Shown piece after piece: positions 2,174 to 39,645 of a stretch of 48,441 bases of DNA (position 1 is the first letter of the stretch; every line of letters begins with the position of its first letter). Made by a program: the position numbers and the translations under genes. The stretch is from a bacterium (GTDB taxonomy: Bacteria; Hydrothermota; UBA3073; JACQXS01), in the NCBI GenBank assembly GCA_030592575.1, contig JAUVIV010000005.1, positions 1 to 48,441 on the forward strand, in the 5' to 3' direction. The notes under the pieces were generated by a model. The model saw only the letters and a program-made list of their open reading frames with translations. It was not told the DNA's origin and ran no database searches.

Positions 2174-2201
2174 TGTCATTCTGAACTTGGTTCAGAATCT
2201 C
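2174..2201 (+). repeat. Left arm of a 28-nt perfect inverted repeat flanking the GIY-YIG gene
   Basis: The arm begins TGTCATTCTGAAC and ends GTTCAGAATCTC. Its core is itself a palindrome of TTCTGAAC and GTTCAGAA around a TTG loop. It is the exact reverse complement of 2525-2552. The GIY-YIG start codon lies 8 bases beyond its end. Confidence 0.95.
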
Positions 2202-2209
2202 AAGTATAT

Positions 2210-2473
2210 ATGAACAGGCAATATTATGTGTACATTCTCACAAATAAATCTAATAAAGTTCTTTATATCAGGGTAACAAATAGTCTGGAACGTAGAGTAT
2301 TTGAACACAAAAATAAATTAGTAGAGGGATTTTCAAAAAAGTATAACCTGAAAAAACTTGTGTACTATGAGGCAACAGATGATGTAATAAGTGCGATAAG
2401 GAGAGAAAAACAGCTTAAAAACTGGCGTAGAGATTGGAAGATAAATCTAATAAAGGAGTTTAATCCTGATTGA
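2210..2473 (+). CDS. Small GIY-YIG endonuclease-like protein inside an inverted-repeat module
   Basis: The 87-residue protein has the GIY-YIG fold: YYVYILTN, then LYIRVTN, then LERRVFEHK, and a C-terminal EKQLKNWRRDWK. It is the length of the stand-alone single-domain family. I chose the ATG at 2210 because an upstream in-frame extension would only translate the repeat. Two oddities suggest decay. The conserved Gly of the YIG motif is Arg (AGG for GGG). The family C-terminus NPDWKDL appears here as NPD, then TGA, then codons for KDLSEEF and a TAG at 2495-2497, as if Trp became a stop. Nuclease activity is therefore uncertain. The flanking inverted repeats suggest the gene moves with, or acts on, them (inference). 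Confidence 0.85.
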   Translation: MNRQYYVYILTNKSNKVLYIRVTNSLERRVFEHKNKLVEGFSKKYNLKKLVYYEATDDVISAIRREKQLKNWRRDWKINLIKEFNPD

Positions 2474-2524: not shown

Positions 2525-2552
2525 GAGATTCTGAACCAAGTTCAGAATGACA
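2525..2552 (-). repeat. Right arm of the 28-nt perfect inverted repeat flanking the GIY-YIG gene
   Basis: Exact reverse complement of 2174-2201. It lies within a decayed outer palindrome at about 2499-2573, where a GATGCTGAAAC stretch faces GTTCAGCATGAC, so elements of the same superfamily appear nested. Confidence 0.95.
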
Positions 2553-12295: not shown

Positions 12296-13711
12296 ATGAG
12301 AAATATAACCTTCCACATAATCAGTTACGGTTGTCAGATGAATGTTTATGATTCAAGAATTATTGCAAGTATTTTATCCGAAAATGGATATAAAGAAACT
12401 GCCGATGAAAATAAAGCAGATATCGTTATTATGAATACTTGTAGTGTGAGAGAACACGCAGAGCAAAGAGCAATTGGGAGGATTGGTGATTTGCAGAAAT
12501 TCAGAGAGAAAAAACCAAATTTCCTTATTGGAGTAGTTGGTTGTATGGCACAAAATTTAGGCAATTCTATTAAAGGAGCAGATTTTGTAGTTGGTCCATC
12601 AGGTTATAGAAAATTACCGGAAATTATAGAATCAATATTCAAGACCAAAAACTCAAGCTCCAAAAAGTCTAATGCCTATACTCTAACATCTAATACCTCT
12701 CTTGAGCTTTATTCTGATATATTCCCTGAACCCGTTCCTGCACAGGTCAGAATGCCAGCATCTACCCTTCATCCTACTGCTTTTGTTTCTGTGATGCGGG
12801 GATGTAATAATTTTTGTTCCTATTGTATAGTTCCTTACGTAAGAGGACGGGCAAGGTCAAGACCTTCAAGCGATATTCTAAAAGAAATTGAGTTGCTTGC
12901 AAATAAAGGCGTAAAAGAAATAACTCTTCTTGGGCAATCTGTGAATGAATACTCATATAACGGAATTAACTTTTCTCAACTTTTAATGCTTACCGATGAG
13001 ATGCTGAAACAAGTTCAGCATGACAGTGTTCCCTGGATAAAATTTACAACTTCGCATCCTAAAGATATGAGTCAAGAATTGATAGATGCGATTAGAGATG
13101 GAGAAAAAATCTGCGAATGGATTCATTTGCCTATACAATCCGGATCTAATGAAGTTCTTAAAAAAATGGGCAGAGGATATACCAAAGAAAAATATCTCGA
13201 TTGGATTTATAAAATAAGGAAATCTATCCCAAACATTGCCATAACTACAGATATTCTGGTAGGTTTTCATGGGGAGAGTGACAAAAATTTCCAGGAAACA
13301 CTTGAGGTAATCAAAGAGGTAAGATTTGATTTTGCCTATATGTTTAAATATTCCGAACGACCTCGTACTAAGGCATATACTATGAAACCTATCGTTCCGG
13401 AAAAAATAAGAATTGAAAGATTGGAGAAATTAATAAACATTCAAAATGAAATAAGTTACGAGAAAAGCTCTGAACTCATAGGAACAACACAAGAAGTTTT
13501 AGTTCTTGGCAAAAGCAAGAAAGGCAATTCATTATACGGAAAAACAAGACAGAACAAAACGATAGTATTCGATAGTAGTAGCAAAATAACCCTACCCCTA
13601 CAAGGAGATTTCGTTGAAGTAAAAATAAAAGAACTACGCGGCTGGACACCTTACGGAAAACTCCTGTCAAAAAAAATTGAACCACAGAGAACACAGAGAA
13701 AAACTTCTTAA
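12296..13711 (+). CDS. miaB: tRNA-2-methylthio-N6-dimethylallyladenosine synthase (radical SAM)
   Basis: MiaB adds a methylthio group to i6A37 of tRNAs reading UNN codons. The 471-residue protein has the three MTTase-domain cysteines (SYGCQMN, NTCSVRE, VVGCMAQ), the radical SAM motif CNNFCSYC followed by IVPYVRGR, HPKDMS, LPIQSGS, and a C-terminal TRAM-like region. A 27-base palindromic repeat (12998-13024) is inserted in frame, adding EMLKQVQHD between LLMLTD and the conserved IKFTTSHPKDM. The last ten or so residues (EPQRTQRKTS) come from a second repeat family that also supplies the stop. Both additions are absent from typical MiaB. MiaB rather than MtaB/RimO is chosen from length and motif wording. 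Confidence 0.92.
   Translation: MRNITFHIISYGCQMNVYDSRIIASILSENGYKETADENKADIVIMNTCSVREHAEQRAIGRIGDLQKFREKKPNFLIGVVGCMAQNLGNSIKGADFVVGPSGYRKLPEIIESIFKTKNSSSKKSNAYTLTSNTSLELYSDIFPEPVPAQVRMPASTLHPTAFVSVMRGCNNFCSYCIVPYVRGRARSRPSSDILKEIELLANKGVKEITLLGQSVNEYSYNGINFSQLLMLTDEMLKQVQHDSVPWIKFTTSHPKDMSQELIDAIRDGEKICEWIHLPIQSGSNEVLKKMGRGYTKEKYLDWIYKIRKSIPNIAITTDILVGFHGESDKNFQETLEVIKEVRFDFAYMFKYSERPRTKAYTMKPIVPEKIRIERLEKLINIQNEISYEKSSELIGTTQEVLVLGKSKKGNSLYGKTRQNKTIVFDSSSKITLPLQGDFVEVKIKELRGWTPYGKLLSKKIEPQRTQRKTS
12998..13024 (+). repeat. 27-nt palindromic repeat inserted in frame within miaB
   Basis: Starts GAGATGCTGAAAC and ends GTTCAGCATGAC; nine codons, so the reading frame is preserved. The same 27-base form occurs outside genes at 38067-38093, and its mirror-type relatives flank the GIY-YIG gene. 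Confidence 0.92.
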
Positions 13712-14010
13712 CCGCAGATTACGCGGATGACACAGATAAAATATTTTTGAACTACTTTTAAGATTAAAGATTAGAAGATTCAAAGATTGGAAAGCATTTG
13801 CACACAGATTAACACAGATTGGAAGGATTACCACAGAGAGCACAGAGAAAAGAAAAAAATAGATAAAATTTATTTTTAAAAGTTTAACACAAATCAAATT
13901 TATTAGGGGAAAAGCTTTTCTGTTCGTGATAAGTTCGTGTTTATATTTTTATTCGTTTATTTGTGTCATTAGTGGTTAATGTATTATATATGAAAAACTG
14001 CAAAGAAAAT
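13680..14010. repeat. Composite ACACAGAG/ACACAGATT-type repeat patch between miaB and hutU
   Basis: This gene-free stretch holds several short related units of ACACAGAG, CGCAGATT and ACACAGATT type. The part at 13680-13755 recurs in inverted orientation at 38301-38365 and partly at 41475-41505. A 38-base unit at 13918-13955 recurs, inverted and with two mismatches, at 21024-21061. The first 32 bases encode the MiaB tail. Confidence 0.85.
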
Positions 14011-15705: not shown

Positions 15706-15763
15706 AACTATTGTAATATTGCATAAAAAAGTTTACAACAATGCTTACTATGAACCTTTTACC

Positions 15764-15863
15764 TGTCATTCTGAAGGAGCAAAGCAACTGAAGAATCTTG
15801 TTTTGGGTAAACTTTGTGAAGAGTCTTTTAGAGCGAGATTCTTCGCTATCGCTCAGAATGACA
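15764..15863. repeat. Inverted-pair palindromic element upstream of selA
   Basis: A left arm starting TGTCATTCTGA and ending AAGAATCT, a spacer of about 35 bases, and a right arm starting AGATTCTT and ending TCAGAATGACA. A close copy lies at 22164-22259. It ends 16 bases before the selA start codon, so the selA leader is repeat-derived. Confidence 0.9.
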
Positions 15864-22092: not shown

Positions 22093-22163
22093 AGTGCTAT
22101 GTTACTCTAAATCTCTTAAAGTCATTCTATAACCCTTTTATTTGTTACTCTGAATCCTTTGTT

Positions 22164-22259
22164 TGTCATTCTGAAGGAACGAAGCAACTGAAGAATCTCA
22201 TTCATGAGTAAACTCCGTGAAGAGTCTTGAAAGATTCTTCACTATCGCTCAGAATGACA
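22164..22259. repeat. Inverted-pair palindromic element upstream of the LysR gene
   Basis: Close copy of 15764-15863: a left arm from TGTCATTCTGAAGG to GAAGAATCT and a right arm from AGATTCTTC to CAGAATGACA. The rest of the 22093-22500 gap is AT-rich and shows nothing else I can name. Confidence 0.9.
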
Positions 22260-37849: not shown

Positions 37850-38365
37850 ACAGATTTGTACAGTAGAGGCGTTTAATTAAACGCCCCTACAATCTCAGAC
37901 AGAAGCAAGCTTCTGCAATCCAAAATATCGCCGAGATTTATCCTCGGCAAAAACAAATATGGGGGATAAACCCCCACGCTACGAAGAATTAAGGATTTGA
38001 GGAGATTTGCAAAAGAAATGTCATTCCGAACTTGTTTCGGAATCTCAAAAAGAAGAAAGTCTTTAAGAGATGCTGAAATAAATTCAGCATGACACTTGGG
38101 GGAGTTCTATAAACAAATCAAGGAAGGCAATGAATGAGTCAGAGAGTTCTTTGAATCTTCAATTTTGAATCTTCAATCTATAGTTTCTTTGTGTTCTCCA
38201 TATTCTTTATGGTTCATTTTTTTGTAGTTAAAAAGTTTTTATTCTATGATTCTTCTTTTCTCCGTGTTCTCTGCGGTGAGAATTTTTTTAGTGTTCTTTG
38301 TAGTTTAAAATATTTTATCTGTGTCATCTGCGGTTAAGAAGTTTTCCTCTGTGTTCTCTGTGGTT
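37850..38365. repeat. Gene-free repeat patch between the FAD oxidoreductase and saccharopine dehydrogenase genes
   Basis: Holds a GTAGAGGCGTTTAATTAAAC palindrome (37863-37890), GCCGAGATTTATCCTCGGC (37930-37948), GGGGGATAAACCCCC (37961-37975), the inverted-pair element 38020-38093, and a run of TTGTGTTC/CTGTGGTT units from about 38175. The last part (38301-38365) is an inverted copy of 13680-13755 and abuts the dehydrogenase stop. Confidence 0.85.
38020..38093. repeat. Short inverted-pair element, a gene-less counterpart of the GIY-YIG module
   Basis: Left arm 38020-38046 (GTCATTCCGAAC to GGAATCTC), a 20-base spacer, right arm 38067-38093 (GAGATGCTGAAA to CAGCATGAC). Both arms are 27 bases and inward-facing, as at the GIY-YIG gene, but no gene lies between them. 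Confidence 0.85.
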
Positions 38366-39645
38366 TAAAAATCTTTGCTCCGTTTACATTCCTGAGTTTT
38401 TTCGTTAAAAGTTATTCCTTGTTGTTCAAGTTCTTTTAACATTATTTCATAAATTTCTGGTAATGTTGGAATACAAACTCCTTTGGAATTTATTTTTCCT
38501 TCTAAAATCAATTTAGTTCCAATTGCGGCTGGCAATCCTACTGTACTTGACATTGACGAATCTCCTCCCGGAATCCCAAAATCTACAAGAGTGGAAGTGA
38601 TTTTTTTCTTCCGTTCACTGAAACTTGCAAGGAATTCGTGGTGCAAAATAATCATATCCCTCTCCTTTGGCTCGTATTGAAGTTTCTCAAATAACCGACT
38701 TGACAAAACATCAAGTGCAGATCCTTTCTTAAGTGGCAAAGTTTTTTCGCTTAAAAGTCCCAGCCACTCAAATTTACGCATAACCTCAGAATCCGTTTCT
38801 AACTCTCCGTTGACAAATTCCTTGTATGTAAGTCCTTCAAGTTTTTTTTCTTCTTCATCAAGCAAACCGATTTTCCCTATTAATCGCCAAATTTTACACC
38901 ATCCAAGATTCCGAAGAGTTCCCCTGTACATTGTTTTCACTCCAGAAATACCATATTTTTCAATATAAGGAATAGAGTCCCGATTTGGATAAGCTTCGAA
39001 TTCGCCAAATTCTCCTATTTTGACAATTGAATAATCATCAAAAAGGTGCTCTCCTGAAATTTCTATTTTCTCCCCATCTTTAAGATATCTGGCATTGTTT
39101 TTCAAGGCAAGAACAGCTCCTTTTGGACTCCATGAAAACTTATATCCCCAAGGATTTGTGTTTGCCTCCGGAGCTAGAAGCCCACCACAATAACTACAGA
39201 AACTTGTAATCTTTCCGCCAGAATTTTGAACCTTATGAATTATCTGCATTGCAGACATATGGTCAATTCCGGGGTCAAGTCCTATTTCATTTAATATAAG
39301 TACACCTGCATTCTTTGCTTGATTATCAAGAGCTTGCATTTTGGCACTCACATAAGAAGTCGTTACCATTGGTTTTTTATGCTTAATACAAAGCTCTGCT
39401 ATCATTGGATGATAAATATAAGGTAGTAAACTTATCACAATATCAACATCTGGTATCTCATTATTTAATTTTAATAACTCGGTTGATACATCCAGTTTCC
39501 CAAATTTGCCTCTTGGATGACCTGCAATCACCTTCTCTGCATCACTAACAGTTCTGGTAAGTATTTTTACCTGAAAATCGTTAAGCAGATAGCGAATCAA
39601 TGGTTTTATAACCATTCCCGCTCCAAGAACCAAAACTTTCTTCAC
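38365..39645 (-). CDS. Saccharopine dehydrogenase (glutamate-forming), SDH half of LKR/SDH type
   Basis: The enzyme oxidises saccharopine to glutamate and aminoadipate semialdehyde. The 426-residue protein has an NAD(P) Rossmann motif (VLVLGAGMVIKPLIRYL), ISLLPYIYHPMIAELCI, NEIGLDPGIDHMSAM, SYCGGLLAPEANTNPWGYKFSWSP, YPNRDS and YRGTLRNLGW. These match the C-terminal half of plant and animal LKR/SDH (AASS) more closely than fungal LYS9 alone (from memory). Four-base overlap with the preceding membrane gene; the LKR partner is two genes upstream. Its stop codon lies at the edge of a dispersed repeat. Confidence 0.9.
   Translation of the reverse strand: MKKVLVLGAGMVIKPLIRYLLNDFQVKILTRTVSDAEKVIAGHPRGKFGKLDVSTELLKLNNEIPDVDIVISLLPYIYHPMIAELCIKHKKPMVTTSYVSAKMQALDNQAKNAGVLILNEIGLDPGIDHMSAMQIIHKVQNSGGKITSFCSYCGGLLAPEANTNPWGYKFSWSPKGAVLALKNNARYLKDGEKIEISGEHLFDDYSIVKIGEFGEFEAYPNRDSIPYIEKYGISGVKTMYRGTLRNLGWCKIWRLIGKIGLLDEEEKKLEGLTYKEFVNGELETDSEVMRKFEWLGLLSEKTLPLKKGSALDVLSSRLFEKLQYEPKERDMIILHHEFLASFSERKKKITSTLVDFGIPGGDSSMSSTVGLPAAIGTKLILEGKINSKGVCIPTLPEIYEIMLKELEQQGITFNEKTQECKRSKDF

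Follow-up and report, generated by a model that had tools for sequence, protein, structure and literature searches.

Can a mobile palindromic repeat enter the reading frame of a core enzyme and leave the gene intact, and if so, what moves it there? The question is raised by miaB in the window, by which we mean the whole 48,441-nt stretch of DNA analysed here (contig C17 of the 2.49-Mb draft genome G000). The initial annotation had pointed to a 27-base palindrome inside miaB, with a second copy between genes, and had seen in it a mobile repeat colonising the gene. We think it rather probable that the insert represents a mobile REP of the CGTC type, that the gene is intact, and that a GIY-YIG nuclease is the probable mover.

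A palindromic repeat in the miaB reading frame

The sequence GAGATGCTGAAACAAGTTCAGCATGAC at 12998-13024 is an exact match to the palindrome consensus, and it differs from the intergenic copy at 38067-38093 in the loop alone. Both copies were thus correctly recognised at the outset. Read on the minus strand with one extra base, the element is TGTC-ATGCTGAA-CTTGT-TTCAGCAT-CTC. Five copies in the window (at 2175, 2525, 12998, 38020, and 38067) match the consensus, and there are 25 copies genome-wide, versus zero matches for the reversed control pattern. Given that only 0.01-0.04 consensus matches are expected in shuffles of the window, chance is excluded. The element is therefore a dispersed repeat, as initially annotated, and its copy number, together with its presence and absence among relatives, suggests that it is mobile. 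The features of the window are collected in Table 1. Two other repeats were observed there. At 37958-37983, adjoining the CGTC dimer, ATGGGGGATAAACCCCCACGCTAC resembles a GTAG-type REP, by eye only; and a longer repeat with GTCATTCTGAAGG, ending in AGAATCT, is present at 15745-15798 and at 22145-22198, and resembles a long-loop CGTC REP.

Table 1. Repeat copies and associated genes in the window
Feature	Position	Strand	Remarks
REP copy just 5' of the GIY-YIG gene	2174..2201	+	28-nt arm, 100% complementary to 2525-2552
Small GIY-YIG nuclease gene, proposed cognate nuclease	2210..2473	+	87 aa from Met2210; PF01541 49.7 bits (cut-off 22.6)
REP copy just 3' of the GIY-YIG gene	2525..2552	-	Perfect inverted repeat of 2174-2201
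miaB (tRNA-2-methylthio-N6-dimethylallyladenosine synthase)	12296..13711	+	471 aa, insert = residues 235-243; TIGR01574, PDB alignment, AlphaFold model
REP inside miaB, CGTC-type	12998..13025	-	TGTC tag, 8-bp stem ATGCTGAA/TTCAGCAT, 5-nt loop CTTGT, tail CTC
Intergenic REP copy, first half of tag-outward (head-head) dimer	38020..38046	+	
Intergenic REP copy, second half of the 38020/38067 dimer	38067..38093	-	Copy cited in the initial annotation

The host gene is MiaB by the equivalog model TIGR01574 (476 bits, cut-off 355) and by alignment to the solved MiaB 7mjz (E 3e-107), and it has both the UPF0004 and the radical-SAM cysteines. Translated, the element reads EMLKQVQHD and is free of stops. 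The MiaB of the congener G002, the closest relative's (77% amino acid identity), does not carry the element, and the flanks align: the region reads LLRLIDGT-GVPWINFTTSHP in G002 and LLMLTDEMLKQVQHDSVPWIKFTTSHP in the window. Relative to G002 the net gain is 21 bp, or 7 aa, which falls inside 12998..13025, with about 6-7 bases of older sequence replaced. The simplest reading of the junction places a 28-base REP where about 7 bases had been, GATGGAACTGGTGTT becoming GAT[REP]GTGTT. No target-site duplication is evident in the comparison with G002, a relative too divergent to fix the junction. The initial annotation, according to which the repeat added nine residues and preserved the frame by being 27 bases long, was right that the insertion is in frame and without a stop; the gain is seven residues, however, and what preserved the frame is the net change of +21, which is divisible by three, rather than the 27-base length of the repeat.

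The spacing between the GQxV and SHP motifs is 35 aa here. Of 36 MiaBs measured, most have 28-29 aa, and in the few with a spacing of 33-34 aa the insertion sits at another point. The residues of the element were found in no other MiaB examined (about 35, plus G002). The insertion is therefore lineage-specific, and the recent in-frame entry first proposed is supported. Distant orthologues with the same nine residues, encoded by a different and non-palindromic sequence, had been named as the observation that would speak against it, and none was present among those examined. A literature search for the peptide and for the repeat sequence returned no match. The gene differs elsewhere as well. A second stretch, at about 12738-12783 in the linker ahead of the radical-SAM domain, is 30 bases longer than in the congener, and the 3' end and stop of miaB (13668-13741) run into a repeat of ACCACAGAGAACACAGAG type, inverted at 38304-38377, so that the C-terminal residues of MiaB may also be repeat-derived.

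Effect on MiaB and copies in other genes

The six catalytic cysteines (13, 49, 83, 170, 174, and 177) are among the invariant columns of the alignment. Pairwise comparison with the congener gave dN 0.14 and dS 0.91, with a dN/dS of about 0.16 that describes the pair as a whole and is compatible with a very recent loss too. In the AlphaFold model (pLDDT 89.5; TM 0.87 to the solved MiaB 7mjy), a helix (226-239) and a strand (247-251) are predicted with good confidence, with the insert between them. The initial annotation had proposed to model whether the nine residues form a surface loop; in the model they lengthen the end of a barrel helix and the turn that follows, at a helix-to-strand connection of the radical-SAM barrel. 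Helix-to-strand turns of a (beta-alpha) barrel face away from the active site. We infer from these data that MiaB is still functional. Its description as an "essential-type" enzyme is doubtful, since miaB is dispensable in E. coli.

Two other readings of the insert have to be weighed. In favour of the first, that it has inactivated MiaB and the gene is decaying, one might count the second length difference with respect to the congener, at about residues 148-160, and the C-terminus that runs into another repeat; yet the frame is open, the catalytic cysteines are intact, and dN/dS is low, and we consider decay very improbable. The opposite reading treats the nine residues as an ancestral or functional trait of MiaB in this lineage that only resembles the repeat, and it would fit with their being in frame and with the predicted helix extension. 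Its probability seems next to negligible to us: the residues are missing in the congener and in all other MiaBs examined, which already contradicts an ancestral trait, and the DNA of the insert is near-identical to the genomic repeats. The miaB insertion is a clean lineage-specific case of selfish DNA lengthening a core enzyme.

Such insertions are not confined to miaB. We read the flanks of 154 distinct copies from this genome and its relatives. After three weak matches within ORFs (two rows of L150 and one of L177) had been set aside as spurious, eight credible in-frame in-gene copies remained, miaB included. Two copies lie in secreted proteins, in the linkers just ahead of a T9SS sorting domain (L019, L187), one in a MinD-like/ferredoxin protein between iron-sulfur motifs (L155), and one in a hydrogenase or sulfite-reductase-like subunit (L213). 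The remaining three are in UvrC (L200), TruB (L202), and Der (L203) of a related genome, G008. When compared with solved structures, UvrC and TruB have clear extra segments; in Der the element seems to be a substitution, not a lengthening. Six of the eight copies encode peptides of the xxLKQVQxD type and two of the CHAExxSAS type, and none uses the third open frame of the element, VMLNLFQHL. The excinuclease and truB genes have likewise been named as REP targets (PMC3733652).

A GIY-YIG nuclease gene between inverted REP copies

The small GIY-YIG gene at 2210-2473 lies between two inverted copies of the repeat (Table 1); apart from it and uvrC, the genome has no gene of this kind. Its YIG motif reads YIR, where relatives have YxG, and the window's own nuclease may accordingly be impaired, weak, or dead, to judge from the motif. 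We collected close homologues of this gene from 147 genomes of the phylum and tested 30 loci for a tagged palindrome within 120 bp, using a test that was loosened post hoc, after the flanks had shown palindromes with longer loops. A palindrome was present upstream in 21 loci, downstream in 19, on both sides in 14, and on at least one side in 26. The controls were clean in the same test (0/29 miaB loci, 0/19 small GIY-YIG genes of other kinds, a mean of 0.002 for shuffled flanks). A stricter scan, for exact palindromes with an 8-bp stem within 100 bp, recovered nine loci, a minority of the nucleases; in a slightly stricter version there was one match in 125 kb of miaB loci. A search for the nuclease in viral contigs gave no match.

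Palindromes grouped by core sequence follow the nuclease tree, with a mean identity of 0.67 within and 0.54 between groups. None of 5000 label permutations was as extreme, a procedure that does not fully remove shared ancestry. The four type-A loci nearest to the window's gene belong to different host families (f1, f4, f19, and f36), and in family f12 types B and C occur together, either type with its matching nuclease. Hosts of an A-type nuclease (G000, G049, G103, and G006) have type-A REP counts of 25, 27, 19, and 5 and lack type-C REPs, and hosts of a C-type nuclease (G007, G037, G112, G113, and G018) carry 63, 25, 8, 6, and 3 type-C REPs, versus 0, 0, 5, 0, and 0 of type A. Type-A copies also occur without a close nuclease in G008, G041, G059, and G057 (42, 34, 30, and 40 copies; all drafts, some incomplete), and the gene is therefore unneeded for persistence of the REP. 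Type-A copy number is not predicted by genome-level presence of the nuclease; we therefore claim no more than the association at the locus and the matching of types.

In the explanation that we favour, a hairpin of 27-28 nt with a TGTC tag entered miaB after the split from the congener, replacing 6-7 bases. One strand of the palindrome offers an open frame, and the landing site was the turn from a barrel helix to the next strand, which gave MiaB a longer helix end and a loop away from the catalytic cysteines, with purifying selection retaining the gene. A GIY-YIG nuclease of the 2210-2473 type, the probable mover, would cleave the hairpin as a single strand, at the tag or close to it, and so start copying or re-insertion; the association makes it plausible that such an enzyme recognises the REP and mobilises it. 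A broader hypothesis, to which we give slightly less than an even chance, is that CGTC-type REPs are non-autonomous partners of this nuclease family, each clade having its own palindrome type and lying between inverted copies of it, and that this pairing seeds hairpins genome-wide, including in frame into miaB, truB, and uvrC.

The mover could also be of another kind, or there could be none. If REPs were spread passively, by recombination or by replication template switching, which short hairpins favour, the GIY-YIG genes would be separate mobile genes that insert in or between REPs. Genomes with high copy numbers and no close nuclease are in keeping with such a process, which carries real weight for us though we hold it unlikely; the matching of palindrome type to nuclease clade argues against it, as does the inverted, tag-outward arrangement of palindromes on both sides of the nuclease. 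It is improbable, on the other hand, that the REP in miaB is mobilised, like GTAG REPs, by a RAYT (REP-associated tyrosine transposase). The genome does have six Y1_Tnp matches, two of the three scanned (C52 and C144) match NF047646 REP_Tyr_transpos, and on C108 a REP copy is found some 1.5 kb away from the Y1_Tnp match. However, none of the six genes is immediately flanked by the REP family, with a distant relative of TCTGAG type near L139 only, and the RAYT of C52 has two GTAG-type palindromes upstream (L137 1307-1389), that is, a different and separate REP system. Moreover, G041, which is 97% complete, combines its 34 copies with zero Y1_Tnp, REP copy number does not follow Y1_Tnp count (rho 0.12, p 0.37), and no RAYT or other IS200 transposase gene flanked by CGTC REPs was found in the hosts surveyed in PMC3733652. 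We rejected a RAYT as the likeliest mover because RAYT genes have other repeats or none of the REP family, and because the tag is TGTC, not GTAG. The link between the GIY-YIG nuclease and the REP is a strong lead, short of a discovery.

Relation to CGTC-type REPs and other hairpin systems

CGTC REPs are described as having a CGTC tag or its TGTC or CCTC variant, a stem of 8-9 bp starting with complementary AT, a loop of 4-5 nt, and a short unpaired tail, CCA in most, not all; their dimers are mainly tag-outward (HH) (PMC3733652). They are mostly intergenic, with some intragenic copies, including in tRNA pseudouridine synthase genes, and Rickettsia RPE-4 and RPE-6 were equated with CGTC-4 and CGTC-1 repeats inside genes (PMC3733652). 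They seemingly have no dedicated transposase, and the mechanism of their spread is a stated open question (PMC3733652). Here, the TGTC tag is found at 13025-13022 (minus strand) and in the copies flanking the GIY-YIG gene, the 8-bp stem starts with AT, and tag-outward dimers comprise the 38020/38067 pair and more pairs in C27, C6, C70, and C94. The GIY-YIG gene is immediately flanked by the REP family, and the Y1_Tnp genes are not. By these features the element fits the CGTC-tagged REP superfamily, apart from its 3-nt tail, which is CTC versus the usual CCA. Intragenic insertion of CGTC-type REPs is already known, and the miaB case is a further member. The wider value lies in a link of CGTC REPs to a specific GIY-YIG nuclease clade that can be tested and that bears on the question of how these REPs spread (PMC3733652).

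The closest resemblance is to CGTC REPs with an 8-bp stem and a 5-nt loop, which share with our element the TGTC variant, the stem starting with AT, the 3-nt tail, the HH dimers, and the occasional in-gene copy. Unlike the published CGTC REPs (PMC3733652), it has the tail CTC and an uncultivated host, and the authors knew no enzyme partner. RPE-4 and RPE-6 are likewise CGTC repeats within genes, but are rickettsial and have other stem sequences; RPE-1 is a separate, longer element. GTAG REPs with their RAYT are also short tagged hairpins, dispersed in the genome and flanking a nuclease gene, but they differ in the tag and in the class of enzyme (HUH tyrosine versus GIY-YIG). The Ssn family reportedly consists of small GIY-YIG site-specific single-strand nucleases that cut repeat sequences; the repeat cut in Neisseria reportedly numbers hundreds of copies. 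We take it to be the nearest described system to the REP-nuclease pairing, and it may already include this association. Work on Ssn is said to concern transformation, not in-gene insertion; both systems have small GIY-YIG proteins in common, and the GIY-YIG domain is recognised in the 2210-2473 product (PF01541, 49.7 bits), with YIG as YIR.
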